Assembly: GCF_900105175.1 (NCBI RefSeq)
Contig: NZ_LT629771.1
Location: forward strand, 4,668,501 to 4,732,500
Source: Jiangella sp. DSM 45060
Lineage (GTDB): Bacteria; Actinomycetota; Actinomycetes; Jiangellales; Jiangellaceae
Length of the DNA: 64,000 nucleotides
Direction of reading: 5' to 3'
Shown here: positions 22,052 to 38,906 of the stretch, piece by piece
Numbering within the stretch: the first letter of the stretch is position 1
Layout of the letters: each line of letters opens with the position of its first letter
The notes under the pieces: generated by a model
Database searches by the model: none
The model's input: the letters and a program-made list of their open reading frames with translations, nothing else
What the model was told of the DNA's origin: nothing
Made by a program: the position numbers and the translations under genes

Positions 22052-23018
22052 TGTCGTAGGCCGCGCGGGTGATCTCGTGCACGAGCGGCCGGCCGTCCAG
22101 GAACCGCAGCACCTCGTCGACGGTCACGGCGCCCTGCTCGCGCAGGGTCTCGGCGGTCAGCGCGGCGATGTGCGGGGTGGCGACGACGCCGCCGGCGCGC
22201 CGCCACGGGTCGTCGACGGGCAGCGGCTCGGTGTCGAACACGTCGGTGACCACGCGGATCCGCCCGGCCGCGGCGGCGGCCAGCAACGCGGCGCCGTCTG
22301 CCAGGGCGGCACGGGCGGTGTTGACGACGAGCGCGCCCGGCCGCAGCGCCGCGATCTCGGCGGCGCCGATCATCCCGCGGGTCGACGGCAGCACCGGGGC
22401 GTGCAGCGACACCACGTCCGACTCGCGCAGCAGCCGCGGCAGGCCGGCCGGCTCGGCGCCGAGCGCGGCCGCGTCCTCGGCGGACAGGTACGGGTCGTAC
22501 ATGAGGCAGCGGCAGCCGAACGGACGCAGCCGGTGCAGCGTCGCCCGGCCGGTGCGGCTGGCGCCGACGATGCCGACGGTCTGGTCGCGCAGCAGCCGGC
22601 CCGGCGGGCGGGCGGCGAGGTCCGCCCACGGCGCACCGGAGCGCAGCGCCGTCGCGAACCCGGCGGCGTCGCGCAGCCCGGCGATGATCGACATCACCGC
22701 GAACTCGGCCACCGCCTCGGCCAGCACCGCGGCGACCTGGGTGACCCGCACGCCGCGGTCCAGCGCGACGGCCGGCACCAGGTGCCGCACCGATCCCCCG
22801 GTGTGCGCGACCAGCCGCAGCCGGGCGCCGTCCGCGTACGACGACGGCGGCAGCGGCGGGGTGTCCCAGCCGGTGACGCAGGCGTCGGCCGTCGCGAACA
22901 GGGCGGGGTCCAGGGACAGCACGACGTCGGCGGCCGCGGCCAGCCGGTCCAGGTCACGCTCGGCGAGGATCCGCCGGCGCAGGTCGTCGCCCAGCGCGAC
23001 GACGACGCGGGCGCTCAC
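22041..23018 (-). CDS. D-isomer-specific 2-hydroxyacid dehydrogenase
   Basis: A 325-residue NAD-dependent dehydrogenase. The catalytic triad of the family is present: Arg in NTARAAL, Glu in VFDTEPL and His in TPHIAAL. The nucleotide-binding loop reads VGIVGASRTGR, slightly divergent from GxGxxG. The GTG start at 23018 overlaps the FAH-family stop (GTGA). It is the last gene of the 16-gene operon A and probably reduces a 2-keto acid produced by the upstream aldolase or hydrolase. Its 3' end lies inside the hairpin at 22003-22051. Confidence 0.88.
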   Translation of the reverse strand: MSARVVVALGDDLRRRILAERDLDRLAAAADVVLSLDPALFATADACVTGWDTPPLPPSSYADGARLRLVAHTGGSVRHLVPAVALDRGVRVTQVAAVLAEAVAEFAVMSIIAGLRDAAGFATALRSGAPWADLAARPPGRLLRDQTVGIVGASRTGRATLHRLRPFGCRCLMYDPYLSAEDAAALGAEPAGLPRLLRESDVVSLHAPVLPSTRGMIGAAEIAALRPGALVVNTARAALADGAALLAAAAAGRIRVVTDVFDTEPLPVDDPWRRAGGVVATPHIAALTAETLREQGAVTVDEVLRFLDGRPLVHEITRAAYDTSA

Positions 23019-23926
23019 CGGGCACCGTCGACGATGGTCGTGGCCAGCGCGCCGATCCCCTCGACGTGCGCCACCACCTCGTCGCCGGGCACCAGGTACT
23101 CCGGTGGCGTGCGGGCGTCGCCGACGCCGGACGGTGTGCCGGTGAGCAGCACGTCACCCGGCTGCAGCGTCACGTAGCGGGACAGCTCGGCCAGCAGCGC
23201 GGGCACGTCGAAGACCATGTCCGCGGTCGTGGAGTCCTGCTTCACGACGCCGTTGACGGTGAGGGTGAGCCGCAGCGCGTGCGGGTCGGGCAGCTCGTCC
23301 TTCGTCACCAGCCACGGGCCGAGCGGGCAGAACCCGTCCAGGCTCTTGCCGAGGAACCACTGGCCCTCGGGACGGCCGTGCTGCTGGTCACGGGCGGAGA
23401 TGTCGTTGGCGACGGTGTACCCGAAGACCGCGTCGGCGGCCGCCTCCCGCGAGAGGTGCCGCCCTCCTCCGCCGAGCACCACCGCCAGCTCGACCTCCCA
23501 GTCGGCCCGCTCCGTCAGCGCCGGGTCGACCGCGACCCGGCCGGGACCGGTCACCGTCGTCGTCGCCTTGCTGAAGAAGATCGGTCGCTCCGGTACCGCG
23601 GTCGAGTGCTCCGACTCCGCGACGTGCCCGCGGTAGTTCGCACCGACGGCGAAGACATTGCGGCGCGGCCGCGGGATCGGCGCCAGCAACTCGGCATCAC
23701 GGAGCGGGACGAACGCCTCGCCGGGCCCGGCGGAAGCCGCCACCCGAACGTCGGCGAGGACGGCGTCGCGGATGTCGGCGGGCAGCTCCAGCAGCGTCAT
23801 GACCTCCGCCGGGACGTGCGGCCCCGCGCACGTGGCGTCGTAGATCACCGCTTCGTCCGGGACGACGACACCCCAGCCCACGGCCGCATCTGGGCCGGCC
23901 GGACGGCGGAAGCTGACGATGTTCAT
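23015..23926 (-). CDS. Fumarylacetoacetate hydrolase (FAH)-family protein
   Basis: A 303-residue cytoplasmic enzyme of the FAH superfamily, which hydrolyses or isomerises 1,3-diketo acids. Motifs: NYRGH (98-102), the metal-binding acidic set E-x-E in WEVELAVVLGG, GYTVANDISARD and the C-terminal LLTGTPSGVG. Relatives include 2,4-diketo-3-deoxy-L-fuconate hydrolase, the last enzyme of the non-phosphorylative fucose route, and that role would suit this sugar-acid context. It overlaps its neighbours by 4 nt on both sides. Other FAH-family reactions cannot be excluded. Confidence 0.88.
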   Translation of the reverse strand: MNIVSFRRPAGPDAAVGWGVVVPDEAVIYDATCAGPHVPAEVMTLLELPADIRDAVLADVRVAASAGPGEAFVPLRDAELLAPIPRPRRNVFAVGANYRGHVAESEHSTAVPERPIFFSKATTTVTGPGRVAVDPALTERADWEVELAVVLGGGGRHLSREAAADAVFGYTVANDISARDQQHGRPEGQWFLGKSLDGFCPLGPWLVTKDELPDPHALRLTLTVNGVVKQDSTTADMVFDVPALLAELSRYVTLQPGDVLLTGTPSGVGDARTPPEYLVPGDEVVAHVEGIGALATTIVDGAR

Positions 23927-24795
23927 ACGGGCCTCTCCTCATGGGTCGGTTCGGGCGACAAGGCGCCGACGCGGCGGACGAAGTCGATGTCCGCCGGCAG
24001 TCCGAGCTCGGCCGGCGGCAGGTGTCGCGGATACCAGCGCCGCTCGTACTCGAGCGTCATGGCGCCGGTGTAGCCGGCCAGCAGGGGTAGTACGGCCGTC
24101 CACTCGACGACACCGGCGGCGAGTCCGACGGGACGCCGGTCCGCCGCCGGCGGCAGGAAGTTCTTGAGATGGACGTGGCGGATGAGCGGCTCTTGCACCC
24201 GAACCGCAGCCGCGGCGTCCTCGGCACCCATGATGGCCAGGTTCGCCTGGTCGTAGAGCACGCCCACGCACGGCGCCGCGGCGGCCTCGACCAGCTCACG
24301 GGTGGCGCGGGCGCTGGTGGCCAAGGTGTCCATGTGGTTCTCGACGTTCAGGCTGACCCCGGCCGCATCGGCGTGCCGGGACGCCTCCGCGAGCGACTGT
24401 GCCGCACGACGCGCGGCCGCCGGTCGCGCCGCTCCGTCGTGGTCGTGACCGGCGAGAACACGCACGTGGCCGGCGCCCACCGCCGCGGCGAGCTCGACCG
24501 TGCGGCGCAGCTCGTCGACCGCCGTCCGTCGCCGGTGCTCGGAGTCCGCGTCGATGTCGCGCACGTACGAGCACAGCGCGCCGATCCGCAGACCCAGCTT
24601 CGCGGCCGCCCCCACCACTCGTGTCACCTCGTCGCGGCGGGCGCGCAGCCGCAGCGCCGCCGGATACTCCTCATCGACGATCAGCTCGACCCCGTCGAGT
24701 CCGAGCCGGTGGGCGATCCGCAGGCAGCCGACCGCATCGGTCTCCGGGGTCGCCATCGAGTGCAGCCACAGCGGCCGGTCCGCCGGCCCGTTCAC
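23923..24795 (-). CDS. Sugar phosphate isomerase/epimerase-like TIM barrel (xylose isomerase-like, AP endonuclease 2 fold)
   Basis: A 290-residue barrel with the metal-binding residues of the family at the strand ends: VELIVDEE, NVENHMD, YDQANLA, HVHLKNF and LEYERR. The start is a GTG at 24795. Just upstream (24832-24854) is a strong inverted repeat, so this gene and the two after it may have their own regulation within operon A. It overlaps the FAH-family gene by 4 nt. Family members act as hexulose epimerases, inosose dehydratases or keto-acid isomerases, so the exact reaction is open. Confidence 0.83.
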   Translation of the reverse strand: MNGPADRPLWLHSMATPETDAVGCLRIAHRLGLDGVELIVDEEYPAALRLRARRDEVTRVVGAAAKLGLRIGALCSYVRDIDADSEHRRRTAVDELRRTVELAAAVGAGHVRVLAGHDHDGAARPAAARRAAQSLAEASRHADAAGVSLNVENHMDTLATSARATRELVEAAAAPCVGVLYDQANLAIMGAEDAAAAVRVQEPLIRHVHLKNFLPPAADRRPVGLAAGVVEWTAVLPLLAGYTGAMTLEYERRWYPRHLPPAELGLPADIDFVRRVGALSPEPTHEERPV

Positions 24796-24831
24796 GGATG
24801 CGAGGCGGATCGGAGACGGGGCATGCGCGCC

Positions 24832-24854
24832 AGTCTAGAGAAAAATTCTAGACT
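24832..24854. promoter_or_regulatory. Inverted repeat AGTCTAGA-N7-TCTAGACT
   Basis: Perfect 8-bp arms at 24832-24839 and 24847-24854 flank an A-rich 7-nt spacer. It occupies most of the 58-bp gap between the aldolase stop and the isomerase start. GTCTAGAC-type cores are typical of GntR/HutC (DasR-like) operators. It could also form a short RNA hairpin that attenuates the operon. Confidence 0.55.
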
Positions 24855-25786
24855 CAACAAGACTCTGGAGGAAACTTCTGACGTCGGCTCGAGGGCGCTG
24901 GGAGGCCGGCCGCCGTCAGGATCCGGTGCACCTCGCTCAGCCCATCGGCGTCAGGTGGGGCGAGCGCCTGGCCGGCGGTCGAGCCGACGATCCCGAGCTC
25001 GGCCAGGGCGGCCTTGAGAGACGTCAGCCAGAACGCGGGCCGATACACCGCACACACCTCGTCGAGCTGGGCTTGGAGCGCCGCCGCGCGCGTCGTGTGG
25101 CCACTCAGCCCGGCCTGGACGAGCTCGGCGGCGAGGCCCGGAACCACGTTGGCGATCCCCGGTACGGCGCCGTGCGCCCCTGCGGCGAGACTACGGGCGA
25201 TGAGTGCCTCGGCGCCCTGGAACACTCGAAGTCCCGCGGCGCCGGCGACTTCGGCCAGAGCGGCATAGGTCTCCCAGTCGCCTGACGATTCCTTGAGCGC
25301 GATCACGGAATCGATCGCGGCGATCTCCCGAAGCGCCCGGGGCGTGATCGGATGGTGCGTCAGGTGCGGGATGTTGTAGACGACAAGAGGGAGGCTGGTC
25401 GTCTCCGCGATGGCGGTGACGTGCCGGAGGACCGCGCTGTCGGTGTCGGTGTCGAAGTACATGGGCGCCATCACCACCAGGGCGTCGACACCGATCTGCT
25501 CGAAGTCCCGGCCGGCCCGCAGAGCGCGCTCCGTACTCGTCTCGCCGATGCCGGCCAGCACCGGAACGGATCCGGCGACGGCGCCGACGTAGGCTCTCGC
25601 GATCTCGCTCGCGACCCCTGGCTCGAGAGTGGGCCCTTCACCGCAGGACCCGAGGATGAACAGCGCTGCGGCGCCTCCGTCCTGGACGTGCGCCGTGAGC
25701 CGCTCCACGGCACCGATATCGGGACGGCGATCGGGGGTCAGTGGCGAGACGACTGGTGGGATCATTCCGGACAGTTGCAGATTCAT
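24854..25786 (-). CDS. DapA/NanA-family keto-acid aldolase (dihydrodipicolinate synthase superfamily)
   Basis: A 310-residue class I aldolase/lyase. Visible active-site residues are Schiff-base Lys165 in ALKESSGD, Tyr137 in YNIP and the GSCGEGP pyruvate-binding loop (46-52). The family includes N-acetylneuraminate lyase and 2-keto-3-deoxy sugar acid aldolases. Presence in a sialidase-containing operon allows a neuraminate lyase role, but no nanE/nanK-type genes follow; an FAH-family hydrolase and a dehydrogenase do, so a keto-deoxy acid aldolase is at least as likely. The aldolase follows the sulfatase after 58 bp. Confidence 0.88.
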   Translation of the reverse strand: MNLQLSGMIPPVVSPLTPDRRPDIGAVERLTAHVQDGGAAALFILGSCGEGPTLEPGVASEIARAYVGAVAGSVPVLAGIGETSTERALRAGRDFEQIGVDALVVMAPMYFDTDTDSAVLRHVTAIAETTSLPLVVYNIPHLTHHPITPRALREIAAIDSVIALKESSGDWETYAALAEVAGAAGLRVFQGAEALIARSLAAGAHGAVPGIANVVPGLAAELVQAGLSGHTTRAAALQAQLDEVCAVYRPAFWLTSLKAALAELGIVGSTAGQALAPPDADGLSEVHRILTAAGLPAPSSRRQKFPPESC

Positions 25787-25844: not shown

Positions 25845-27137
25845 TCATGGCGCCCCCGGCCCCTCGTCGAGGGAGCCGCTCGGAGGCACCACGACTCCGG
25901 CCAGAACCGGATCGTTCGTCTCGAACATCCATGCCTCGAGACGCGCCGCGAGATCGGCTTTCACCTGCGTGTACGACGGATCCTGCGCGAGATCGCGCCG
26001 CTGCCACGGGTCGTGATCGAGGTCGTAGAGCTCCTCGGCCGGCCGGGGCCGCAGCCGATCCTCCCCCAGGCCCGGCCGCATCGGGCTGCGCTCGATGTCG
26101 CCCGACAGCCTCGGCGGCGTGCCCGGTTCGAGGTTGCGGATGTACGCGAACCAGTCGGTGCGGATGCTCCGGATCGGGTCGTACTCGTCGTGGTAGTTCT
26201 TCTCCGCGAAGACCTCGCGGCGCCGCGGCCCCGGCTCGCCGCGCAGGACCGCGGCGAAGCTCTTCCCCTGGACGAACCGCGGCACCTCCCCACCGGCCAG
26301 CTCGAGTAGGGTCGGCAGCACGTCGAGGTGGCTGAGCAGCCCGTCCGGAGCTCCCGGCGCGACGTTCCACGATCGCGGCGGCCTGGCGAGGAACGCCACC
26401 CGGATGCCGGGGTCGTACAGCGTGCCCTTCGCCCGCGGGTACGCGATCCCGTGGTCGGTGGTGAAGAGGACCAGGGTGGACTCGGCCAGGCCGGCCCGGT
26501 CGATGGCGTCGAGGACCCGGCCGGTGGCGGCGTCGGCGACCCGGATCGAGCCGAGGAACGCGGCCAGGTCCGCCCGCGTGTGGTGGTTGTCCGGCAGGTA
26601 CGGCGGAACCTCGACCGTCGCAGGGTCGACCGGCGGGTACTCCTCCACCGGATACGGGCGATGCGTCTCGAAGAACCCGACGGTGAGGAAGAACGGTTCC
26701 GCCGGTGCCGCGTCGAGCCATTCCACCGCCTTCTCCGACACCGGACCGCACCGGGCCGGGCCGTCCAGCCAGGGATGGACCTCGTCGAAGCCGAGCCGGT
26801 ACGAGTCGCGGCTCTCGTGCTGCTGGCCGATGAGAGCGGTCCGGTAGCCGAGCTCGGACAGCAACGACGGCGCGGTTCGTTCGCCCGGCCGGTACTCCCA
26901 GCCCCGGTTGACCAGGCCCATCAGTCCGTTCGTGTGCGGGTAGCGGCCGGTGAACAGCGAACCGCGGGCCGGGCTGCACAGCGGTGTCGTACAGAACGCC
27001 TGGTCGAATCGGAGCCCCTCGGCGGCCAGCCGGTCGACGGCGGGGCTCGTCACGTCGCCGTGGCCGTACGCACCCAAGTGGGTGCCGACGTCGTGCCAGT
27101 GGATCAGCACGACGTTGGGGCGCTCGGACGTGGTCAT
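25845..27137 (-). CDS. Formylglycine-dependent sulfatase of operon A
   Basis: A 430-residue type I sulfatase with the maturation motif CSPAR at 54-58 (Cys54 to formylglycine), followed by GSLFTGRYP. The N-terminal metal site is altered (VVLIHWHDVG rather than DD), with the conserved TTDHG later in the chain. No signal peptide, so it should act on imported oligosaccharides. It overlaps the GH13 gene by 4 nt, implying that desulfation and glycosidic cleavage are coupled. Confidence 0.92.
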   Translation of the reverse strand: MTTSERPNVVLIHWHDVGTHLGAYGHGDVTSPAVDRLAAEGLRFDQAFCTTPLCSPARGSLFTGRYPHTNGLMGLVNRGWEYRPGERTAPSLLSELGYRTALIGQQHESRDSYRLGFDEVHPWLDGPARCGPVSEKAVEWLDAAPAEPFFLTVGFFETHRPYPVEEYPPVDPATVEVPPYLPDNHHTRADLAAFLGSIRVADAATGRVLDAIDRAGLAESTLVLFTTDHGIAYPRAKGTLYDPGIRVAFLARPPRSWNVAPGAPDGLLSHLDVLPTLLELAGGEVPRFVQGKSFAAVLRGEPGPRRREVFAEKNYHDEYDPIRSIRTDWFAYIRNLEPGTPPRLSGDIERSPMRPGLGEDRLRPRPAEELYDLDHDPWQRRDLAQDPSYTQVKADLAARLEAWMFETNDPVLAGVVVPPSGSLDEGPGAP

Positions 27138-28801
27138 ACGCGGCTCCTCGGGTGGAGATCCAACCAGACCGCGCCGTGGGCAGGGACCTCGCCCTCGGCG
27201 GCTCCGTCGTCGCTGGACAGGACGACGCGGCCGTCCAGGGCGATCGGCGCCGGGGTCGAACCGAAGTTGACGACGCAGCCGAAGCCCGGGTCGCGGGTGA
27301 ACACGAGGACGTCGTCACGCGGCGCCTCGCACCAGTGCACCTCGCCCGTTCCGCCCAGAGCCGGATGTGACCGCCGCAGACGCAAGGCGCGGCGGTACAG
27401 CTCGAGGAACGACGAGTCGTCGCCCGCCTGGGCCGACACCGCGTGCGTTCCCCACCCTGAGGGCTGCGGAAGCCAGGCGCCGTCGTCGCCGAACCCGAAC
27501 GAGCTGCCCTCCGGCGTCCACGGCAACGGGACCCGGGCGCCGTCGCGACCCCAGCGCCGCCCGCCGGACCGGATCCAGATCGGGTCCTGCCGAGCGTGCT
27601 CCGGCACGTGCGCATCGGCCAGCCCCAGCTCGTCACCCTGATAGAGGTACACGCTCCCGGGGAGCGCCAGGGTCAGCAGCGCCGCCGCACGGGCCCGGCG
27701 CCGGCCCAGCGCCTCGTCGACCAGGCCCAGCTCCGGCCCGGACACACCCGGGCGCCGGCGGGTGTCGGCGCGGCCGTAGCGGGTGACGACGCGTTCGACG
27801 TCATGGTTCGACAGCGCCCAGGTGGTCGGCGCCCCGACAGCCGACGTGGCCGTGATCGAGGCGTCGATGGCGCGGCGCATGCCGTCCGCCGTCCACGCCG
27901 ACTTCAGGTAGTGCAGGTTCAACGTGGTGTGCAGCTCGTCGGGCCGGACGTACCGCGACAGCCGGTCCGGGTCGTCGAGCCACGCCTCGGCCGCGAACAT
28001 CCGCGGCGGGTCGTAGGAGTCGGCCAGCTTCCGCCAGCTGCGATAGATGTCGTGGACCTCGTCGCGGTCGCGGTGCGGGTGGTCGGCGAGGGTCAGGTCG
28101 GCGAGGAACGCGCCGTCGGGATATCCCAGGTCCGGTAGCCCGGGCGCCTTGACCAGCGCGGTGGCGACGTCGATGCGGAACCCGTCGACCCCGAGGTCGA
28201 ACCAGAACCGCAGGATGTCCTCGAACTCCGACCGGACGTCGCCGCTGTCCCAGTTCAGGTCGGGCTGGGAGGCGTCGAACAGGTGCAGGTACCACTCGCC
28301 CGGGTGGCCGGAGGCGTCGTCGACACGGGTCCAGGCGGGACCGCCGAACACGCTCAGCCAGTCGTTGGGCGGCAGCTGCCCGCCCTCGCGCCCGGCGCGG
28401 AAGTGATAGCGGGCACGTTCCGCGGAACCGGGCGGCGAGTGCAGCGCATCGACGAACCAGGGGTGGTCCGAGGACGTGTGGTTGGGGACGATGTCGAGGA
28501 TGACCTTGATCCCGGCCGCGTGGCACTCGTCGATCAGCTCCCGGCCCTCGTCCACGGACCCGTACCGAGGATGGATGGCGCGATAGTCGGAGACGTCGTA
28601 GCCGGCGTCGCGCAGCGGTGAGCGGAACCACGGCGTGATCCAGACGGCGTCGACGCCGAGATCGGACAGGTAGCCGATCCTGCTGCGCAGCCCGGCGATG
28701 TCGCCGATGCCGTCGGCGTTGCCATCGGCGAACGACTGGAGGTAGAGCTGATAGATCACCGCGTCGCGCCACCACGGTGCCGGGGTCACATCGTCATCCA
28801 T
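27134..28801 (-). CDS. GH13 alpha-glucosidase/oligo-1,6-glucosidase-like enzyme
   Basis: A 555-residue cytoplasmic alpha-amylase-family enzyme. The four conserved regions are present: DIVPNH (103-108), GFRIDVA with nucleophile Asp211, AEAW with acid/base Glu272, and SNHDVE with Asp334. The N-terminus (WWRDAVIYQLYLQSFAD) and length match alpha-glucosidases that trim oligosaccharides from the non-reducing end. The ATG at 28801 lies 5 bp after the beta-helix gene stop. It probably attacks alpha-glucosidic linkages of the imported oligomer. Confidence 0.93.
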   Translation of the reverse strand: MDDDVTPAPWWRDAVIYQLYLQSFADGNADGIGDIAGLRSRIGYLSDLGVDAVWITPWFRSPLRDAGYDVSDYRAIHPRYGSVDEGRELIDECHAAGIKVILDIVPNHTSSDHPWFVDALHSPPGSAERARYHFRAGREGGQLPPNDWLSVFGGPAWTRVDDASGHPGEWYLHLFDASQPDLNWDSGDVRSEFEDILRFWFDLGVDGFRIDVATALVKAPGLPDLGYPDGAFLADLTLADHPHRDRDEVHDIYRSWRKLADSYDPPRMFAAEAWLDDPDRLSRYVRPDELHTTLNLHYLKSAWTADGMRRAIDASITATSAVGAPTTWALSNHDVERVVTRYGRADTRRRPGVSGPELGLVDEALGRRRARAAALLTLALPGSVYLYQGDELGLADAHVPEHARQDPIWIRSGGRRWGRDGARVPLPWTPEGSSFGFGDDGAWLPQPSGWGTHAVSAQAGDDSSFLELYRRALRLRRSHPALGGTGEVHWCEAPRDDVLVFTRDPGFGCVVNFGSTPAPIALDGRVVLSSDDGAAEGEVPAHGAVWLDLHPRSRV

Positions 28802-28806: not shown

Positions 28807-30660
28807 CTACCTGACCGCGTTGCCCAGCGGCACGGTGCGCCACGCGGTGCCGTCGGACATCGCCAGGCAGGGTCCGCCGGCGCGGCCGTCGACGACCTGG
28901 ATGAGCGCGCCCGCCGCGTCGGCGGCCGACGGCATGGTGGCGACGGTGTACGGATGCAGCCGGGTGGCGTAGGTGTACACCGTCCGGATACTCGCGTCGG
29001 GGCTGCCGATGTCGCGGGCGTTGTCCGTGGGCGGGATCAGGCCCGCGACACTGGCCTGGAACGCGACCACCTCGTTCGTGGAGTTCGTCGAACACAGCAG
29101 GTTGGTGGCCGCCGAGCCGGACGCGTTCACCGCCACGACCTCGACGCCGCCCTTGACGCCGGGCCCCGCGCCCTCCGTCAGCGCGCTCTCCACCAGATAG
29201 CCGCCGTAGCCGTCGCCCGCGGCGATGCCGTCGGTCGCCGTGCTGTGCACGCGTGCGGCGGCGTCCTTCGCGGCGGCCACCTCGAGCCTCGTGAACCTGC
29301 CCGGCGCGGATTCGACGAACGAGTCGGCGCTGATCGAGCCGGCGGCGACCAGAGCACCCTGCTCGAACACGTTGCCGACGACGTTGGACGCACTCAACGT
29401 GCCGTCGACCCGGATCGGTAGCCCGGCCGCGTTCCGGTTGGCCGAGAAGGCGTTGCCGACGATCGCGAACCGGGTGGCGTCGCCCTGCACGCGCACGGCG
29501 CCGTGAACGGCGGTGTTGGCCAGGTTGTAGTGGTCGAAGGAGTTGTCGGTGATGCTGACCTTGTCGGCGGAGCCGGCGAACCCGATGGGAGAGCCGCGGA
29601 GCCAGTTGAACGTGTTCGCCGAGATCGTGACGTTCGTCGCCGCCACGCCCGCGAGGAAGCTGATCGCGTAGATGGGCGGTTCGTGTGCGCCCGGTGTGGT
29701 GTCGAAGCCGCCGATCACGTTGCCGGTGATGGTGAGGTTGTGGCCACCGGAGCCGATCTCGATGATGGCGTTGCCGTTGCCGTTCTCGACCACGTTGCCG
29801 CTGATGGTCGAGTTGGTCAGGCTGCCCTTGAACAGCCGGCGGCCGATGTCGAGCAGGTTGTTGCTGATCACCGCGCCGCGGAACTCGCCGTCCGGGGCGC
29901 CGTTGAAGATGATCGCGTCGAAGTTCGAGTGGAAGTGGTTGTCGGTGATCAGCCACTTGCGCAGGCCGTACGGCAGCTTGTGGACCTCGCCGCCCGGGAT
30001 CTCACCCGCCGGCCACGAGATGGTGATGCCCGTGGTGCAGACGGCGATCTTGTTCTTCGTGAAGAGGAAGCCGCGGCCGACGCTCTCGATGGCGCGCTGG
30101 AAGCGGAGGAACGAGCACTCGACGATGGTGACGTCGGTGTCGTCGGTGTTCGCCGAGTTGCGGGCGACGTGGAGGGCGACGTTGTTCGCCGTCTTCACCG
30201 GGGCGTCGAACGCGATGCCGTGGATGCCGCCGAGCGACGCCTCCCACCGGATGCCGACGCCGTCGTGGTGGAAGGTGATCTTCGACGACTCCTCGCCGAA
30301 CATGCCGTACCCGCGCAGGACGAAGCGGTTCAGGTGCTCGCCGGGTGTTTCGTACTCGTGGTCGCCGACGACGATGGTCGACGTGACCTTGTACTGCCCG
30401 GGCGGGAGGACGACGATCTTGTTCAGCTGCGACCGGGCGGCGTCGATCGCGGCCTGGATCGCGGCGGTGTCGTCGGCCACGCCGTCGCCGAGGGCGCCGA
30501 ACTGCTGCGGCGTCAGGACCGGGGTGCCGTCGGCCTCGACGAGGCTCGGCGGCGCGGTCTCGGCGTGGGCGGTGCCGCCCAGCGCGAGCCCGCCGACGCC
30601 CACGACGCCTGCGCCGGCGGCGGAACGGATCATCATGCGTCGGTTGATGCGATCGGTCAT
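28807..30660 (-). CDS. Tat-exported right-handed beta-helix protein (pectate lyase 3 fold) with phage-tail-like C-terminus, operon A
   Basis: A 617-residue exported protein: Tat signal (INRRMMIRSAAG), then the pectate-lyase-3 entry motif FGALGDGVADDTAAI near residues 54-68 and a long parallel beta-helix with many short N-rich turns (ISNNLLDIG, ITGNVIGG, ISANTFNW). The last 110 residues read DNARDIGS...IRTVYTYATRL, then VDGRAGGPCLAMSDGTAWR, a pattern I know from the C-termini of phage tail fibres and tailspikes. It is clearly paralogous to 47521-49359. Likely a cell-surface polysaccharide depolymerase or binding protein feeding the ABC importer encoded just upstream; catalytic residues are not identifiable. 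Confidence 0.85.
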   Translation of the reverse strand: MTDRINRRMMIRSAAGAGVVGVGGLALGGTAHAETAPPSLVEADGTPVLTPQQFGALGDGVADDTAAIQAAIDAARSQLNKIVVLPPGQYKVTSTIVVGDHEYETPGEHLNRFVLRGYGMFGEESSKITFHHDGVGIRWEASLGGIHGIAFDAPVKTANNVALHVARNSANTDDTDVTIVECSFLRFQRAIESVGRGFLFTKNKIAVCTTGITISWPAGEIPGGEVHKLPYGLRKWLITDNHFHSNFDAIIFNGAPDGEFRGAVISNNLLDIGRRLFKGSLTNSTISGNVVENGNGNAIIEIGSGGHNLTITGNVIGGFDTTPGAHEPPIYAISFLAGVAATNVTISANTFNWLRGSPIGFAGSADKVSITDNSFDHYNLANTAVHGAVRVQGDATRFAIVGNAFSANRNAAGLPIRVDGTLSASNVVGNVFEQGALVAAGSISADSFVESAPGRFTRLEVAAAKDAAARVHSTATDGIAAGDGYGGYLVESALTEGAGPGVKGGVEVVAVNASGSAATNLLCSTNSTNEVVAFQASVAGLIPPTDNARDIGSPDASIRTVYTYATRLHPYTVATMPSAADAAGALIQVVDGRAGGPCLAMSDGTAWRTVPLGNAVR

Positions 30661-30714: not shown

Positions 30715-31536
30715 TCAGCTCCTGACGTCGAGGTCGACGGCGGCGGCGAGGAGCTCCCGGGTGTAGTCGTGCTGCGGTGCGGCGAACAACGTGTGGACGT
30801 CGGCGCTCTCGACCAGCTCGCCCCGGCGCATCACCGCGACGCGGTCGGCGACCTGACGCACCACCCCGAGGTCGTGGGTGATGAACAGCATCGACAGCGA
30901 GCGCGCCGCCCGGACGCTGACGAGGAGCTGCAGCACCTGCGCCTGGACCGAGACGTCGAGGGCCGACACCGCCTCGTCGCAGATGAGCAGCTTCGGGCTG
31001 AGCGCCAGTGCGCGGGCGATGCTCACGCGCTGGCACTGCCCGCCGGACAGCGCGGTCGGGCGCTTCCCCGCGACGTCCGGATCGAGCCCGACCTGGGCCA
31101 GCAGGTCGACGACGGCCTCCCGCCGCCGTCGCGCGTCACGGCGCACGCCCTCGGGAGCGACGTCGGGGTGCGCCTCCCAGGCCTCGCTGATCGAGGCCGC
31201 CGCAGGCAGGCGCGGGTTCAGCGCGGACCGGGGATCCTGGAAGATCATCGCGATGTTCCGCCGCGCCCACTGGTCCCGGGGGCGCAGCTCCAGCAGCGAC
31301 GCCCCGTCGAACTCGATGGAGCCGGCCGACGCGGCGACGAGCCCGACGACCGCACGGGCGATCGTGGACTTCCCGGACCCCGACTCACCGACGAGGGCCA
31401 GGGTCTCGTCCGGCGCGACGGCGAGGCTGACGGCGTCGACCGCGGTGACGGGCGTCCGCCGGCCGATCAGGCCGGCGGCGCGAGGCCCGGGGTAGGTCAC
31501 CGTGAGGTCCGTGATCCGCAGGCCGGCCGCCGTCAT
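30715..31536 (-). CDS. Dpp/Opp-type ABC importer ATPase, DppF type, operon A
   Basis: A 273-residue ATPase: Walker A GESGSGKST, Q-loop IFQDPRSALNPR, signature LSGGQCQRVSIARAL, Walker [13 protein letters not shown] and the switch histidine in ITHDLGV. It lacks the cysteine-containing C-terminal extension found in its partner. The ATG at 31536 overlaps the partner ATPase stop (ATGA). It works with the DppD-type ATPase, the two permeases and the binding lipoprotein of the same operon. Confidence 0.93.
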   Translation of the reverse strand: MTAAGLRITDLTVTYPGPRAAGLIGRRTPVTAVDAVSLAVAPDETLALVGESGSGKSTIARAVVGLVAASAGSIEFDGASLLELRPRDQWARRNIAMIFQDPRSALNPRLPAAASISEAWEAHPDVAPEGVRRDARRRREAVVDLLAQVGLDPDVAGKRPTALSGGQCQRVSIARALALSPKLLICDEAVSALDVSVQAQVLQLLVSVRAARSLSMLFITHDLGVVRQVADRVAVMRRGELVESADVHTLFAAPQHDYTRELLAAAVDLDVRS

Positions 31537-32501
31537 CGGAGGTCCTCCGCGAAGTGACAGGCGCTGAGCCGGCCCGGGGCGATCTCGCGCAGCGCCGGCG
31601 CCTCGGTCCGGCACCGGTCCTGCGCGCGCGGGCAGCGCGGGTTGAACGGGCAGCCTGCCGGCCGGTCGAACGGGTTGGCCGGGCTGCCGGGCAGCGGATC
31701 GGCGATCGTCGATCTGACGTGCACCGAGGGAACACTGCGCACCAACGCGTCGGTGTAGGGATGCAGCGGCCGGTTGAGCACCGCCTTGGCACCACCGCGC
31801 TCGCAGACCCGGCCCGCGTACATGACGACGAGGTCGTCGGCGACGTGCGACATCACGCGCAGGTCGTGGCTGACCAGCAGCATCGACAGGTGGTCCTCGT
31901 CACGGAGGCGGCCGAGCAGCGCGAGGATCCGGGCCTGGACGGTGACGTCGAGCGCCGTCGTCGGCTCGTCGGCCAGGATGAACCTCGGCCGACCGGCGAG
32001 CGCCAGGGCGATCATCGCCCGCTGACGCATGCCGCCGGAGAACTCGTGCGGGTACGCGCCCACACGGGTCGCCGCGTCCGGGATGCCGACGTGGTCCAGG
32101 AGCTCCGCCGCCCGCACCCGCGCCTGGCTCCGCGACACTCCCCGGCCCCGCAGGATCTCGCCGACCTGGTCCCCGATGGTCATGGTCGGGTTGAGCGCGG
32201 TCGACGGGTCCTGGAACACGACCGAGATCTCGGTCCCTCGGACCTGCCGCATCCGCGCCCGGCCGGCCTCGAGCAGGTTCTCCTCGCCCAGGAGCACCTG
32301 CCCGCCGGCCGCTCCGGTCTCCGGGATCAGTCCGACCAGGGCCATCGCCGTCAACGACTTCCCACTGCCGGACTCACCGATGAGTCCGGTCGTGCGGCCC
32401 TCGACCATGTCGAAGGAGACGCCGTCGACGACGTCGGCCATGCCGCGCGGGCCGGGCAGCCTGATCGTCAGATCCCGGACCCGGAGGCGTCCGTCACTCA
32501 T
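31533..32501 (-). CDS. Dpp/Opp-type ABC importer ATPase, DppD type, operon A
   Basis: A 322-residue ATPase: Walker A GESGSGKS, signature FSGGMRQRAMIALAL, Walker [14 protein letters not shown]-loop VSHDLRV, and the oligopeptide-transporter C-terminal cysteine motif CPFNPRCPRAQDRC. The ATG at 32501 lies inside the end of the binding-protein gene (8-nt overlap); a TTG one codon upstream is possible but weaker. The same 8-nt overlap recurs at the matching place in operon B. Confidence 0.93.
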   Translation of the reverse strand: MSDGRLRVRDLTIRLPGPRGMADVVDGVSFDMVEGRTTGLIGESGSGKSLTAMALVGLIPETGAAGGQVLLGEENLLEAGRARMRQVRGTEISVVFQDPSTALNPTMTIGDQVGEILRGRGVSRSQARVRAAELLDHVGIPDAATRVGAYPHEFSGGMRQRAMIALALAGRPRFILADEPTTALDVTVQARILALLGRLRDEDHLSMLLVSHDLRVMSHVADDLVVMYAGRVCERGGAKAVLNRPLHPYTDALVRSVPSVHVRSTIADPLPGSPANPFDRPAGCPFNPRCPRAQDRCRTEAPALREIAPGRLSACHFAEDLR

Positions 32502-34005
32502 CAACCGAGACCGTGTCGAATCGCGGCAGTCCCTCTCCGTCGGGCTCGAAGCCGGACACCGACGTCCGAGCGGCGAAGAGGTTCTTCACGAACATGGGGT
32601 ACATGCCCACGGCCTCGGTCCAGATGAGCTCCGTCGCCTCGGCGTAGGCCGCTTCCCGCTCGGCGGGATCGACGGAGGTTCCGGCCCGGCGCAGCATCTC
32701 GTCCAGCTCCGGGTTGCAGTAGCCGGTCCGCTCCGCCGCGCAGGTGTAGAGCCGGCCGAGGTTGTACGAGGCGTCCAGCCCGAGCGTGCCGACCTGCTGG
32801 ATGTTGATGTCCCAGTTCAGGGCCAGCAGGTCTTCGGTGTAGACGGCCTGTTCCTTCTCCAACGCTTCCGCGTGGACACCGATGGCGGCGAGATCGGCCA
32901 CGACGGAGTCCACCCACTGCCGGAACTGCGCCTGGGAGAAGTGGAAGCGCAGCGTCGTGTCGAAGTCGAAGCCCGCGTCGATCAGCGCCTGCTTCGCCGC
33001 CTCGGGGTCGTAGACCACCGGCTCCTGCGGCGCGTAGCCGAACACCGTGGGGGCGACGACGGAGTCCGCGGGCTCGCCGCTCTCCGGATAGAGCGCGTCG
33101 ATCTTCTTGTCGAAGTCGACCGCCTGCCAGAGTGCCCGCCGCACCTCCGCCTTCGCCAGGGCGGGGGTGGAGGCGTTCATCCACATGGTCGTCACATTGG
33201 AGCCGACCGCGGACAGGACCTCGACCTCGGTGTTGCCGCCGAGCTGCTTGACCTGGTCGTCGGAGATGCCCCAGATCACATCGAGCTCGCCCGTCTCCAG
33301 TGCGGTGACCCTCGCCGCGACCTCGGGGATGGACCGGATGGTGAGCTTGTCGATCTGCGGCTGGTCGCCCCAGTAGTTCTCGTTGGGGACCATGACGAGT
33401 TCTCCGCCGGGGGTGAACGACTCCACCTGGAACGGGCCCGAGGTGACCGGCGTGTCCAGGTAGCTGTCCTCGGTGGCGCTGGCCGGGGTGATCATGAGCC
33501 CCGTCAGCTTGGCCGGAAGCGCCGGGTCGGGGGCAGCAGTCGTGAAGGTCACCGTGGTGTCGGTCGCCGCGACGGCGACATCGACGAAGTTCGCGGAGAA
33601 GGGGCTGTCGGATGCCACCGTGCGCTCGAACGAGGCGGCCACGTCCTGCCCCGTGATCGGCGAGCCGTCGGAGAAGGTGATCCCGTCACGCAGCGTGAAG
33701 GTGAACTCCGTCGCGGTGTCGTTGATCTCCCAGCTCTCCGCGACGATGGGGTCGAACTCGCCCGGTCCGATCGTTTGCAGCAGCGGGCTGTACAGCTGAA
33801 TCGACGCGACCCGGGTGCCACCGTCGATGGCCAGGGGTCCGTTCGGGTCGATGGACTCGGTAGGGAACTGACCGGCGACGGCGATCTCGCCACCACCTGC
33901 TTCACCACCACTCTCGGTGGAATCGTCGCCGGCGCCACATGCCGTGACTCCGAGCAGGCCGAGCAGTGCGGTCGCCGTGATGGCGGAGTGTCGTAGGGAT
34001 CTCAT
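32494..34005 (-). CDS. Family-5 extracellular solute-binding lipoprotein, operon A
   Basis: A 503-residue lipoprotein that captures the substrate outside the membrane. The signal peptide has a lipobox ending at Cys23 (GLLGVTAC), followed by a Gly/Ser/Glu linker and the family-5 fold (ESWEINDTATEFTFTLRDG, VRRALWQAVD, PVVYDPEAAKQAL). GAGGAG lies 7 bases before the ATG at 34005. It is clearly paralogous to 52889-54418. Family-5 proteins bind peptides or oligosaccharides; the surrounding glycosidases argue for sugars here. Confidence 0.93.
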   Translation of the reverse strand: MRSLRHSAITATALLGLLGVTACGAGDDSTESGGEAGGGEIAVAGQFPTESIDPNGPLAIDGGTRVASIQLYSPLLQTIGPGEFDPIVAESWEINDTATEFTFTLRDGITFSDGSPITGQDVAASFERTVASDSPFSANFVDVAVAATDTTVTFTTAAPDPALPAKLTGLMITPASATEDSYLDTPVTSGPFQVESFTPGGELVMVPNENYWGDQPQIDKLTIRSIPEVAARVTALETGELDVIWGISDDQVKQLGGNTEVEVLSAVGSNVTTMWMNASTPALAKAEVRRALWQAVDFDKKIDALYPESGEPADSVVAPTVFGYAPQEPVVYDPEAAKQALIDAGFDFDTTLRFHFSQAQFRQWVDSVVADLAAIGVHAEALEKEQAVYTEDLLALNWDINIQQVGTLGLDASYNLGRLYTCAAERTGYCNPELDEMLRRAGTSVDPAEREAAYAEATELIWTEAVGMYPMFVKNLFAARTSVSGFEPDGEGLPRFDTVSVDE

Positions 34006-34067
34006 GGCGTTGCTCCTCACTGAGCTGCGTTCGACTGTGTGGGGTGGTGCGCCCTGCTGACGTCTCG

Positions 34068-34961
34068 TCATTGCCTTCGGCCGAAGTAGCGGGTGAGCCG
34101 ATCTCCGGTGAAGCCCACGCAGATGACGAGCAGCGCGAGCGCGATGCCGGGAATGGCGGAGATCCACCAGGCGCTGGCGAGGTATTCCTTTCCGGCCGCG
34201 ATGGTCTGACCCCAGGAGACCGACGCCGAGGGCAGGCCGAGCCCGAGGAAGCTCAGCGAAGCTTCAGCCAGAATGGCGCCGGCGAACTCGGTGGTCGCCA
34301 GCGCGAGCGTGGGCCCGGCGATGAACGGCAGGATGTGCCGCGCGATGATGCGCCGGCGCCGCACGCCCATCACCGTCGCCGACTTGACCCAGTCGCGCTC
34401 CCGCAACGTCATGGCCATCGAACGCGAGAGGCGGGCGAAGCCGATCCAGTTGGTCACGCTCAGCGCGATGACGACGATGGCGAGACTTCGATCGAACACC
34501 CCGGCGATGACGATGGCCAGCAGAATGCCGGGGAAGGCGAGCAGGACGTCGATGACGCGCGACGCCACGAGATCGGTCTTGCCGCCCCGGTACCCGGCGA
34601 CGGTACCGACCGCGAGCCCGATCAGGGCGCTGATCAGGACGACGAGGGTGCCGATGAACACCGACGTCCGAGCCCCGTAGACGACCTGACCGAACACGTC
34701 CCGGCCGAGTGCGTCGGTGCCGAACACGGCCGTGCCGCCGTCGCTGAGCACCGAGCCGGGCGGAAGGAGGCGGTCGTCGAGCTCCCCGCCCACCGGGGAG
34801 TAGTCGATGAGCAGCGGGCCGATGATCGCCGCGACGATGTACAGGCCGAAGATCATGATCGGGATCGCGGCGACCACGCGGCGCACCGTGGCGCGCCGGG
34901 TCCGCGCCGGCGCCAGCGGCGCCGGCGGCGCCGGGTTCTGCACCAGTCCCATCGTCGTCAC
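34068..34961 (-). CDS. Dpp-type ABC importer permease C, operon A
   Basis: A 297-residue permease: first helix at about 30-50, the conserved FGTDALGRDVFGQVVYGARTS block, four to five more helices, and the EAA loop RDWVKSATVMGVRRRRI that contacts the ATPase. I use the GTG at 34961, whose GTGA overlaps the stop of permease B; an ATG three codons later (34952) is an alternative. Its paralogue in operon B is 54462-55349. Confidence 0.92.
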   Translation of the reverse strand: MTTMGLVQNPAPPAPLAPARTRRATVRRVVAAIPIMIFGLYIVAAIIGPLLIDYSPVGGELDDRLLPPGSVLSDGGTAVFGTDALGRDVFGQVVYGARTSVFIGTLVVLISALIGLAVGTVAGYRGGKTDLVASRVIDVLLAFPGILLAIVIAGVFDRSLAIVVIALSVTNWIGFARLSRSMAMTLRERDWVKSATVMGVRRRRIIARHILPFIAGPTLALATTEFAGAILAEASLSFLGLGLPSASVSWGQTIAAGKEYLASAWWISAIPGIALALLVICVGFTGDRLTRYFGRRQ

Positions 34962-35887
34962 GACGCCACCCCCGCCCGGATGCGTGGATCCAGCCGCGCG
35001 TTGAGAACGTCGGCCAGCAGGTTCATCGTCACCACGACGATCGCCAGGAGGACGGTCGCGCCCTGGACGATGGCGTAGTCGCGGTTGCCGACCGCGCCGA
35101 CGAGGAGCGATCCGACCCCTTCCCACGCGAAGACCTGCTCGACGATCACCGCGCCACCCATCAAGGTGCCGATGTGCAGGGACACGATGGTCACCACCGG
35201 GATCACCGAGTTGCGCACGGCGTGGCGGCTCAGCACGAGCCGCTCCGGCAACCCCTTCGACCGTGCCGTCATGATGTACGGCTCGGCGGTCACCTCCGCG
35301 ACGCTGCTGCGGGTGATCCGGGCGACCAGCGCCGTGAACGGGATCGCGAGGGTGATCGCCGGCAGCACGAGGTGCTGCAGATCGCCCGACCCCGCGCTCG
35401 GCAGGAGCCGCAGCGTCAGCGCCATCAGCAGGATCAGCATGATGCCCGACCAGAACGACGGGATGGCCTGCATGACCAGCGTGATGCCGGAGATCGCGCG
35501 GTCGAGGAGCTTTCCCGGCGCACGACCGGCCAGGACCCCCAGGAGCAGGCCGATCGTCAGCGCCAGCGCGGTCGCCGTCCCCGCGAGCAGGACGGTCGCC
35601 GGGAACCGTTCGAGGATGACCGCCGTCGCCGAGTCCCGGAAGCGGTACGACTCACCGAAGTCACCGGTGAGCGCCGAGCCCAGATAGTCCAGGTACTGCA
35701 CCAGCATCGGCCGGTTGAGCCCGAGCTCCTCGCGTAACGCGGACACGTCGGCCGCGGTCGCATCCGGCCCGAGCTGCACGGTGGCCTGGTCACCGGGTGC
35801 CAGCCGGAGGATCACGAACGTGAGGCTCACGGCTCCCCACACGGTGAAGATCATGAGGCCGAGTCGGCGGATGAGTTGGGGAAGCAT
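34958..35887 (-). CDS. Dpp-type ABC importer permease B, operon A
   Basis: A 309-residue permease with the typical N-terminal helix (IRRLGLMIFTVWGAVSLTFVI), the periplasmic LAPGDQATVQLGPDAT segment, and EAA loop PYIMTARSKGLPERLVL. It has exactly the same length as its operon B paralogue (55346-56275) and many identical stretches (APGDQATV, GPDATAA, GAVGNRDYA). It follows the 108-residue uncharacterised gene by 44 bp. Confidence 0.93.
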   Translation of the reverse strand: MLPQLIRRLGLMIFTVWGAVSLTFVILRLAPGDQATVQLGPDATAADVSALREELGLNRPMLVQYLDYLGSALTGDFGESYRFRDSATAVILERFPATVLLAGTATALALTIGLLLGVLAGRAPGKLLDRAISGITLVMQAIPSFWSGIMLILLMALTLRLLPSAGSGDLQHLVLPAITLAIPFTALVARITRSSVAEVTAEPYIMTARSKGLPERLVLSRHAVRNSVIPVVTIVSLHIGTLMGGAVIVEQVFAWEGVGSLLVGAVGNRDYAIVQGATVLLAIVVVTMNLLADVLNARLDPRIRAGVAS

Positions 35888-36297: not shown

Positions 36298-37230
36298 TCA
36301 TTCCGTGGAGTACACGACGGAATCGAGGAAGAGATTCACGCTGCGATTCGTGTCGGTCTCGACGAAGAAGATCGGGTTGATCAAGTTCGTGATGCTCTTG
36401 TAGGGCGTGACGAGCGTCGGCGTCAGACCGCGCAGGTCGAAGGTCCGGTCCATGCTCTGCAGCTCGACGTACTCGCGTCGCTGGAAGTCGATGAGCAGGC
36501 GGAAGTACAGCCAGTTGAGCTTGTCGGGGCTCTCGTTGTAGAGGAGGTCCTGGTCGCCATCGGGTACCCACTGGAAGGCGTCGGCCGAGCCGTCGGCACG
36601 GCGGCGGCCGTACCAGAGGTTGTCGACCCCGGGACGCTGCCAGCCGTCCTCGCGCCCGTAGCACCAGTCCTTCTTGGTCACTCCGTCGGCGACCTTCCAG
36701 TACTGCCACTTCTTGGTGAGCTCGCCGTTGACGGAGTTCACGTAGCGCACGCCGGGCATCCAGCGGTACTCGTGGTCCTGCAGGTCGAAGTAGAACCCGA
36801 ACGCCCGCAGGTCCTCCTCGCCGAACCCCAGCCGGTCCTGCTGCGGCGTGTAGGCGTAGAAGGCCTCGATCTGGATGTAGCGCATGTTCGGGTCGAAGTT
36901 CGAGAGCCGCTTGAGAGCGACGCCCATGCTCCCGTTCGCCGGCTGCTCCTCGTAGCGGTTCGCGACCGCCTTGGTGTTCAGCTTCAGCGAGTAGGTGCCC
37001 TCCATCGACCCGTGGGTGGCGGCGAAGCGCATAGGCGCCGCACTGATCATCGAGGGCGCCCAGCTGGCGAGGTCCACCTCGGACGGGTAGTGCCGGTAGT
37101 CGTCGTTGACGAAGTTCGGCGTCAGGTCGAGCCAGCCGTTGAAGCCACGATCGAAGTCGTCGTAGGTGACGATGTTGCGCAACGGCGTGAACTTCTCCAG
37201 GCCGCGCTCGTAGTGGATGACCTTCTGCAC
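36298..37230 (-). CDS. Uncharacterised 310-residue protein, operon A (possibly a glycan-binding or glycan-cleaving beta protein)
   Basis: A protein I do not recognise with confidence; it may belong to one of the DUF families annotated near glycoside hydrolases. The GTG start at 37230 has GGAGG five bases upstream. It has no signal peptide and is rich in aromatic and acidic residues (DDFDRGFNGWLDL, YWKVADGV, NLWYGRRRADG), and its repeated FYFDLQDHEYRWMPG-like strands look like a concanavalin-type beta-sandwich. It follows the sialidase-like gene by 35 bp and precedes the 108-residue gene by 39 bp, suggesting the three form one functional unit. Absent from operon B. Confidence 0.72.
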   Translation of the reverse strand: MQKVIHYERGLEKFTPLRNIVTYDDFDRGFNGWLDLTPNFVNDDYRHYPSEVDLASWAPSMISAAPMRFAATHGSMEGTYSLKLNTKAVANRYEEQPANGSMGVALKRLSNFDPNMRYIQIEAFYAYTPQQDRLGFGEEDLRAFGFYFDLQDHEYRWMPGVRYVNSVNGELTKKWQYWKVADGVTKKDWCYGREDGWQRPGVDNLWYGRRRADGSADAFQWVPDGDQDLLYNESPDKLNWLYFRLLIDFQRREYVELQSMDRTFDLRGLTPTLVTPYKSITNLINPIFFVETDTNRSVNLFLDSVVYSTE

Positions 37231-37265
37231 CGTGCCTCCGTGGCGATAGTGATGGGCGGGCTGTT

Positions 37266-38906
37266 CTAGGCGTCGGCCCGCGGGACGAGCGAGATCTCGT
37301 CGATCTGGAACGCGTGCGAGTCGCCGTCGGGACCCGGGCCGGCCGCGACGAATTCGACGCGGATCGGCCGGCCCGCGCGGACCGGGACGATCCCGAGGTC
37401 GACGTCGAGGAACGGGTCGGCGCCCGACGCGGCCACGACTCCCCCGCGCGGCCGTCCGTCGACCACGACCGCGACGTCGGCGCCGCCGGATGTCCCGTCC
37501 GGCGCGCGGAAGCGGCAGCGCAGGTGGTGCGGACGCGAGACGGCCGGGACGATCGTCACGGCATGGGCGTCGCCCGGGGCGCCGGCGGGCACTTGCGTCA
37601 CCGCCGAGCCCTCCGCGGCCGGATCGAGGGCCATCGGCGCTCGTGGAACCGTGGACTTCGCACGGAGACCTTCCACCTGATACGTATGAAGGAAGCCGAT
37701 GGGTCCCCGCTCCACGCCATCGCGATCTTGGGTGAGCCATGCGAGGTCGAACCGGGCCGCGACCACGTCGAGCGTCTCGACCCCGGAACCGCCGAGTCTG
37801 CTGTAGAGGACGAGGGGCGTGCCGTCGTCGAGCCAGACGACGTCGGAGTAGCCGGCCCGGGCGTTGTCGATCACGCGACCCCACGACCACGACTCGGCCC
37901 CGTCGTGGCTGAGCCGCGCGTACAACGTGTCCCTCCCGGTGCCCTTGACCGGGCTCGTGTACACGACCCGCTCGACGCCGTTCCGGTCCACCCGGGCAGC
38001 CAGGCCGGCGGCGATGCCCGCGTGCGGCGCGATGTTCGTCTCGACGACGGCATCGGTGAACGTGAGGCCGCCGTCGCGGCTCCGGGCGACGGCGCGGCTG
38101 GTGTTGCTGACACCACCCGCGAGCCTGGCGTTGACGATCACCTCGCCCGTGGCGAGCTGGGCGATGCGCGCCTCGTCCAGGCCGAGGCCCGCGGGGTCAG
38201 GGACGATTCCGCCCCAGGCCCACGTCCGGCCCCCGTCGTCGCTGTAGACGACACTCACGCTGTAGTCGCGGCCGGCGGCGGGCACGTCGATCGACCGTCG
38301 ATGCCAGACCTCGACCAGGAGGCGGCCGCCGGCGAGCTGGATGCCGCGGCCCGGGCCGGGCAGGTGGAACGTCCACCCGTGCTCGTTGCCCACGAACAGG
38401 TCCGTGACCTCGATCGGGTCGCCCCAGCTGACGCCGTCGTCGATCGAGGCGCGCTGGAACACCCTCGACGAGAGACCCGCCGCATTGAGCGCGTAGAAGA
38501 CGGTGATCCGGCCGGTACGCAGGTCGACCACGGGCGTGGGATTCGCCCACGCTCCCCCGTGGTGGTCCTCGATGAACGCCGTCGGCCCCCAGGTCCGGCC
38601 GCCGTCGGTGCTGCGCCGCAGGACCAGGTCCTTCGGACCGTCGTCCGCGCTCGTCGCGACCCGAGCCTCGCTGAAGGCAAGCACCGTGCCCGCGGACGTC
38701 ACGTCCACGGCGTGCACGCGGAAGTCGACCCAGCCGTTCTCACCGCGCGACCACAGCGTCGTCAGCTCGAGTCCGCCGCCGGTGCCGGCCGCACGGACCG
38801 GGCGGGCGGCGGCGAGCGGGGTCGCCGTCATCAGGGCGACGACCGTGCCGAACCCGGCGCCGATCGCGTGGCGCCTGGTGATCGGTGTGGCGGAGTGCCC
38901 GGTCAT
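37266..38906 (-). CDS. Tat-exported sialidase-like beta-propeller protein, operon A
   Basis: A 546-residue exported protein. Tat signal (ITRRHAIGAGF), then a six-bladed propeller with clear Asp boxes (STDGGRTWG, SDDGGRTWA, SRDGGLTF, SHDGAESWSW). The catalytic FRIP motif is replaced by FRVH (62-65), which keeps the arginine but not the proline. The C-terminal 140 residues form a further beta domain ending ISLVPRADA. Its ATG overlaps the LacI stop (ATGA), making it the first structural gene of operon A. An ATACGTAT box lies inside it at 37680-37687. It may cleave a nonulosonic acid or another acidic sugar. Confidence 0.87.
   Translation of the reverse strand: MTGHSATPITRRHAIGAGFGTVVALMTATPLAAARPVRAAGTGGGLELTTLWSRGENGWVDFRVHAVDVTSAGTVLAFSEARVATSADDGPKDLVLRRSTDGGRTWGPTAFIEDHHGGAWANPTPVVDLRTGRITVFYALNAAGLSSRVFQRASIDDGVSWGDPIEVTDLFVGNEHGWTFHLPGPGRGIQLAGGRLLVEVWHRRSIDVPAAGRDYSVSVVYSDDGGRTWAWGGIVPDPAGLGLDEARIAQLATGEVIVNARLAGGVSNTSRAVARSRDGGLTFTDAVVETNIAPHAGIAAGLAARVDRNGVERVVYTSPVKGTGRDTLYARLSHDGAESWSWGRVIDNARAGYSDVVWLDDGTPLVLYSRLGGSGVETLDVVAARFDLAWLTQDRDGVERGPIGFLHTYQVEGLRAKSTVPRAPMALDPAAEGSAVTQVPAGAPGDAHAVTIVPAVSRPHHLRCRFRAPDGTSGGADVAVVVDGRPRGGVVAASGADPFLDVDLGIVPVRAGRPIRVEFVAAGPGPDGDSHAFQIDEISLVPRADA
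37680..37687. promoter_or_regulatory. Intragenic ATACGTAT box (candidate LacI operator)
   Basis: The octamer ATACGTAT, identical to the core of both LacI-promoter palindromes (39998-40005 and 57339-57346), lies inside the sialidase-like coding region, about 2.3 kb downstream of the operon A promoter operator. In a GC-rich sequence this AT-rich octamer should be rare. It could act as an auxiliary operator. Confidence 0.45.

Follow-up and report, generated by a model that had tools for sequence, protein, structure and literature searches.

Beta-helix proteins related to a phage tailspike in two putative sulfated-glycan operons of Jiangella

Gene content and conservation of operons A and B

The window analysed here (the whole stretch of 64,000 nucleotides from the soil bacterium Jiangella sp. 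DSM 45060, a genome whose nearest named relatives are Jiangella endophytica at 94% and J. anatolica at 91%) carries two minus-strand operons, A and B, each encoding a beta-helix protein that is referred to below by the letter of its operon. Operon A begins with a LacI-family regulator (38903-40126; Pfam; conserved in Microlunatus, Actinophytocola, and Prauserella), followed by a BNR/sialidase-like beta-propeller protein (37266-38906; Pfam), a DUF6772 protein (36298-37281, with an approximate start since the reading frame is open to 37890; Pfam), two Opp/Dpp-type permeases (34068-35887; Pfam BPD_transp_1), an SBP_bac_5 solute-binding protein (32494-34167; Pfam), two Opp/Dpp-type ATPases (30715-32504; Pfam), protein A, a GH13 alpha-glucosidase-like enzyme (27134-28765; Pfam/NCBIfam), and a sulfatase (25845-27137; Pfam PF00884). 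The operon continues with genes for sugar-acid catabolism (22041-25786; Pfam/NCBIfam), which encode a DHDPS-type aldolase/dehydratase, an epimerase/isomerase, an FAA hydrolase, and a 2-hydroxyacid dehydrogenase. Operon B (44432-54418; Pfam) has its own importer and comprises at least one sulfatase, FAA hydrolase, protein B, FAD oxidoreductase, two Opp ATPases, and SBP_bac_5, in an order that is conserved in other Jiangellaceae. Both loci are thus of the polysaccharide-utilisation type, and the presence of sulfatases in both suggests that the putative substrate is probably a sulfated glycan; no literature linking Jiangella to polysaccharide sulfatases was found. The ABC importer to which an earlier reading made from the sequence alone (the sequence-only reading) had tied protein A can be specified as an Opp/Dpp-type (SBP_bac_5) system, and it belongs to a conserved locus with sulfatase and GH13 genes.

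Actinophytocola and Prauserella retain the order of the genes from LacI to GH13, minus the BNR gene, and Microlunatus retains the LacI, BNR, DUF6772, SBP, and protein A genes; the beta-helix gene and its operon are conserved together in Jiangella, Actinophytocola, and Prauserella, and partly in Microlunatus. At 70-71%, genes A and B match the window (71%) in G+C content, and a recent transfer is therefore not indicated by base composition. If A and B were tail fibres or spikes belonging to a cryptic prophage or a tailocin, the tailspike homology described below would be accounted for, but this reading is hardly credible, given that no tail, capsid, integrase, or lysis genes were found among the scanned neighbours of A and B, that a Tat-like signal stands in place of a virion-binding domain, and that gene and operon are conserved together across several families. 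Such an origin of the locus was rejected because of the gene content of the scanned neighbourhood.

Several further features of these loci were observed. The DUF6772 protein (36298-37281 (-); loci L004-L010) is among the most conserved of the locus (88-95% across genera) and stays with the LacI, SBP, and beta-helix proteins even in Microlunatus; no literature naming this family was found. In two Jiangella genomes, A genes lie in tandem within one operon (L004:8070-11848 and L005:8103-11851), with 84% and 91-94% identity to the window copy. The Microlunatus loci (L006 and L007) yielded neither a permease nor an ATPase gene for an importer, and in them the SBP gene directly adjoins the beta-helix gene. 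In the window, the two operons are adjoined on the opposite strand by genes for a BNR/Laminin-G protein (19460-22000 (+)) and a GH31-like protein with a Golvesin C-terminal domain (40183-43380 (+)).

Four-part architecture of proteins A and B

Protein A (28807-30660 (-), ATG start) has 617 amino acids, and its paralogue, protein B (47521-49359 (-)), has 612 and is 49% identical to it from end to end. Each consists of a Tat-like signal, a right-handed beta-helix, a stalk with the motif DNARDIGS...RTVYx, and a C-terminal tip of ~50 residues ending in SDGTxWRR; in protein B these parts are encoded at 49258-49359, ~48025-49245, ~47674-48012, and ~47524-47673 of the minus strand, respectively. The sequence-only reading had described a Tat start, a beta-helix, and phage-fibre-like C-terminal motifs in protein A, and the motifs were located at residues 546-563 (DNARDIGSPDASIRTVYT) and 602-608 (SDGTAWR). 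Its further observation, that the paralogue keeps the same ends, agrees with the Tat-like start, DNARDIGSADRKIRTVFA, and GDGTTWRR of protein B.

The N-terminus of protein A (residues 1-34; 30559-30660) reads MTDRINRRMMIRSAAGAG... and contains, by direct reading, a twin-arginine segment (NRRMMIRS), a hydrophobic stretch, and AHA; this start is conserved in all orthologues and is modelled with a pLDDT of <50. The arrangement of twin arginines, hydrophobic stretch, and AxA is likewise conserved between A and B by inspection, and just this ~34-residue Tat-like signal and ~15 further residues precede the beta-helix. A P22-like head domain or other virion attachment domain is absent from both proteins, neither matches PF13884 (the S74/ICA chaperone), and no anchor motif was seen at their C-termini.

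An AlphaFold2 model of protein A, built on 23 orthologues, predicts a confident right-handed parallel beta-helix at residues ~45-450 (29311-30528, mostly pLDDT 80-95). The body matches Pfam PF12708, Pect-lyase_RHGA_epim (42.9 bits for A and 54.5 bits for B against a gathering cut-off of 27), as well as Pfam Beta_helix. The nearest solved structures are the AlgE6 and AlgE4 mannuronan epimerases, the lyase RbmB, and phage tailspikes, with the adhesin PfbA among similar folds; query TM-scores to the closest of these are just 0.3-0.4, and such comparisons of a predicted model assign no catalytic mechanism to the body. Full-protein matches to PHROG tailspikes were set aside as phage-specific evidence, since most of them cover an N-terminal cap that is generic to all Pect-lyase_RHGA_epim proteins.

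The sequence-only reading had treated the C-terminus as a single phage-like segment. Its phage-like character stands, but the model resolves it into two separate modules, because residues 452-569 are unfolded in the monomer (pLDDT ~30) and residues ~570-617 form a small folded domain. The first module, the stalk (residues 456-566; 28963-29295), ends in GLIPPTDNARDIGS...IRTVYT (motif at 28972-29025), and its low pLDDT would fit an intertwined trimer and equally well disorder. The second, the fibre-tip module (residues 567-617; 28810-28962), reads YTVATMPSA...SDGTAWRTVPLG. Their separateness is supported by a third paralogue (L026 / L159, G010:C5:84260-85771; 41-42% identity), which has body and tip without the stalk and does not adjoin an importer like that of operon A or B.

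The tip is a phage module in its own right. In tblastn (6e-4 in 2.3 Gb), the last ~45 residues of protein A match phage fibres, and in every case the match lies at the very C-terminal end of the fibre; the matched proteins are the fibres of Alteromonas phages R8W, R9Y1-3, R7M, and H4/4, Burkholderia phage AH2, and Acidovorax phage ACP17. The comparison of the C-terminus with phage tail domains had been set beforehand as a refutation test; the terminal 60 residues, which fold confidently in AlphaFold2 (pLDDT 86), retrieved the fibre C-termini of AH2 (E 6.5e-5), ACP17, and R8W from BFVD, a viral-only library in which bacterial matches are impossible, and the sequence-only reading withstood the test. 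No solved homologue of the tip was found, a tip-only profile gave no match on viral contigs, and when the entire C-terminus was used as a profile, 394 genomes of the class gave no match beyond the A/B family. The tip-bearing fibre-like protein of Alteromonas phage R7M (L048:3281-4102) is annotated in GenBank as ribonuclease III, which is probably a misannotation.

Homology to a phage tailspike and distribution of relatives

In support of the tailspike-like beta-helix proposed in the sequence-only reading, a homologous phage tailspike was found, and the relationship extends over body and stalk. It is encoded on the IMG/VR phage contig IMGVR_UViG_3300042197_000124 (L055; tailspike ORF L055:3602-5890, 763 aa), where adjoining reading frames match an ejected phage protein, an endolysin, and a tail protein. 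The alignment spans ~520 residues from the beta-helix through the stalk, with 35% identity for protein A (residues 52-562, E 2e-78) and 36% for protein B (E 9e-87), and with 39% (A) and 41% (B) identity over the body alone. The stalk by itself matches L055 in blastp (7e-8 for A and 9e-10 for B), and a stalk HMM finds the L055 protein at E 7e-9, compared with 0.018 for the best shuffled phage protein. The stalk of A and B is therefore homologous to the stretch directly before the S74 chaperone in phage tailspikes; it also matches phrog_7121 and, weakly, the phage tail fibre 7y5s. Its GLxPxxDNARDIG segment shows no strict fit to the Bdellovibrio capping-loop motif (V-G-G/N-aromatic-X-X-P-X-X-X-L), which was left aside as evidence.

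Both limits of the homology fall about where the phage-specific domains of the L055 protein lie. At its N-terminus, residues 6-91 correspond to residues 5-95 of a P22-type head-binding domain (1lkt; E 0.0023, which is weak but nearly full length), and at its C-terminus, the homology ends where the protein enters its S74/ICA chaperone (PF13884; 7y5s, 4e-21; endosialidase chaperone 3gw6). At the level of sequence, body and stalk of A and B are thus homologous to a tailspike with a P22-like head-binding N-terminus and an S74 C-terminus, and in the bacterial proteins a Tat-type signal stands in place of the former domain and the tip in place of the latter. L055 is the one close phage relative found: as a query in IMG/VR it retrieved itself alone, and the family-specific profile A2 gave no match on viral contigs.

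Among bacteria the family is rare, being present in 11 of the 375-394 class genomes, all in one family, and no relative of A or B was found outside that family in the sampled actinobacterial genomes; no S74 domain was found in 22 genomes of the order. The body also has more distant relatives, which comprise tail proteins from Vibrio phages 1.174.O, 120E34-1, and D181, Pseudoalteromonas phage PY3, phage T5S1, and viral contig L061, and one plasmid protein of Sinorhizobium americanum. Phage proteins account for seven of the eight non-actinobacterial relatives found, other bacterial phyla having been sampled to a limited extent. Most matches of a broader scan (A6) were rejected as body relatives because they share the cap alone; L061 is the only one of these that shares the body. 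In a tree with long outer branches and no secure root, most sequences are from phages, and those from actinobacteria group together in a single clade (support 92/96). The Sinorhizobium protein (L052:7347-9278 (+), plasmid C) is a Tat-type distant body relative without the phage stalk, and its neighbours are RTX, ABC-2 transporter, and pyruvyl transferase genes of exopolysaccharide type.

These data bear on the direction of transfer, which could in principle have run the other way: A and B may be ordinary bacterial enzymes of the pectate-lyase fold, from which phages took their tailspike body, and C-terminal modules may have been exchanged freely among secreted proteins and fibres. The Pfam matches to Pect-lyase_RHGA_epim and Beta_helix, the presence of bacterial AlgE and RbmB among the best solved matches, the stalkless Tat-type protein of Sinorhizobium, and the unsettled root of the tree are all in keeping with this account, but stalk and tip were otherwise found here in phage fibres only, and both the phage share of the non-actinobacterial relatives and the confinement to one family among the sampled actinobacterial genomes count against it, so that it is considered unlikely. 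As the tree lacks a secure root, no direction was read from it. Transfer from phage to bacterium is instead inferred because the bacterial proteins carry two phage modules and because the family is rare in sampled bacteria.

Proposed function and comparison with known systems

Six polar residues of the body (D174, D176, R196, R234, H244, and D271) are invariant in an alignment of 11 diverse sequences, which includes phage tail proteins and the Sinorhizobium protein at 22-28% identity. When the coil register is set by the asparagine ladder (C182, N203, N241, N268, N289, and N314), R196, R234, and R261 fall at one equivalent site of consecutive coils, and H244, D271, and E292 fall at another. 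This layout is compatible with an anion-binding arginine ladder and a His/Asp catalytic pair, and structural salt bridges would fit it too. A non-catalytic trimeric adhesin or capture protein, which binds glycan and passes polysaccharide to the importer, would be in line with the PfbA-like fold, with stalk and tip modules typical of binding fibres, and with the Bdellovibrio MAT fibres, which are adhesins of such a kind (PMC10769870). This reading is nevertheless improbable, since the invariance of these charged residues in very distant members points to a retained active site, the operons are rich in sulfatases and hydrolases, and the C-terminus is without a visible anchor motif.

Proteins A and B are therefore likely to be secreted polysaccharide depolymerases that share an ancestor with a phage tailspike, in agreement with the lyases, epimerases, and tailspikes among solved relatives of the body. 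In the proposed mechanism, the ancestral gene would have come from a phage, and its product would fold in the cytoplasm, probably as a trimer held together by the intertwined stalk and tip, before being exported in the folded state by the Tat system. Outside the cell, the beta-helix would cleave an anionic, probably sulfated polysaccharide, the oligosaccharides would be taken up through the adjoining Opp-type importer, and the LacI-controlled sulfatase, GH13, and sugar-acid enzymes may then process them. The fullest form of this account is that of nutritional tailspikes: actinobacteria would have captured phage depolymerases and duplicated them into two operons, perhaps for different substrates. 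A Tat signal would have taken over from the head-binding domain and a fibre-tip module from the self-cleaving chaperone, and the resulting trimer would fold within the cell, leave it intact through Tat, and serve to harvest sulfated polysaccharides; the chances for and against this complete scenario are judged to be evenly balanced.

The relationship offers a clear case at the sequence level, with swap points at both ends, in which a receptor-cleaving spike of a phage is related to a feeding enzyme of a cell, and here the bacteria are Gram-positive and the genetic setting is catabolic, not one of EPS synthesis. It makes trimer maturation without an S74 chaperone and Tat export of an assembled beta-helix trimer testable, indicates a likely new sulfated-glycan locus, and suggests that the contribution of phage tailspikes to the polysaccharide-degrading enzymes of bacteria has been under-recognised.

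Comparison with virion tailspikes such as L055 and the S74 tailspikes (phrog_7121 and phrog_1171) shows a homologous body (39-41%), the pre-chaperone stalk, and the same invariant polar residues in A and B; the head-binding domain, the S74 chaperone, and a neighbourhood of virion genes are lacking, and in their place are found a Tat-type signal, a small non-S74 tip, and a catabolic operon. The best solved fold matches of the protein A beta-helix, the AlgE epimerases and the RbmB lyase (5lw3, 2pyg, and 9ozl), resemble it in fold alone, with identities of <=18%, and have neither stalk nor tip. The reuse of a tailspike segment in a cellular protein has a precedent in MYRF, which retains the S74/ICA protease and not the beta-helix, the reverse of the situation in A and B (PMC3742443). 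Similarly, the MAT proteins of Bdellovibrio are cell-encoded proteins with signal peptides and phage-fibre beta-helix stalks, whose S74 tip is replaceable by other tips; they are prey-recognition adhesins, for which the consulted parts of the source report no pectate-lyase-type catalytic body such as that of A and B (PMC10769870). A further precedent is WceF of Pantoea stewartii, a Tat-exported, trimeric, tailspike-like enzyme encoded in an EPS synthesis cluster and suggested to have been acquired from a phage (PMC7949094). Like A and B, WceF is a bacterial protein with a Tat signal and a tailspike-like right-handed beta-helix, and it acts on polysaccharide, but it alone has retained a P22-like head domain, its C-terminal part is a jelly roll, its gene belongs to a Gram-negative EPS cluster, and it hydrolyses the stewartan of its own host (PMC7949094), whereas A and B lie in importer/sulfatase loci and have no P22-like head domain; the WceF chain was not among the PDB sequence matches of protein A at E<=1. 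The Sinorhizobium protein may, by analogy with WceF, be an independent counterpart in an EPS locus. WceF is thus a precedent for the domestication of tailspike-like enzymes, and what sets the present case apart is the host, the type of operon, the exact domain swaps, and a directly homologous phage spike.
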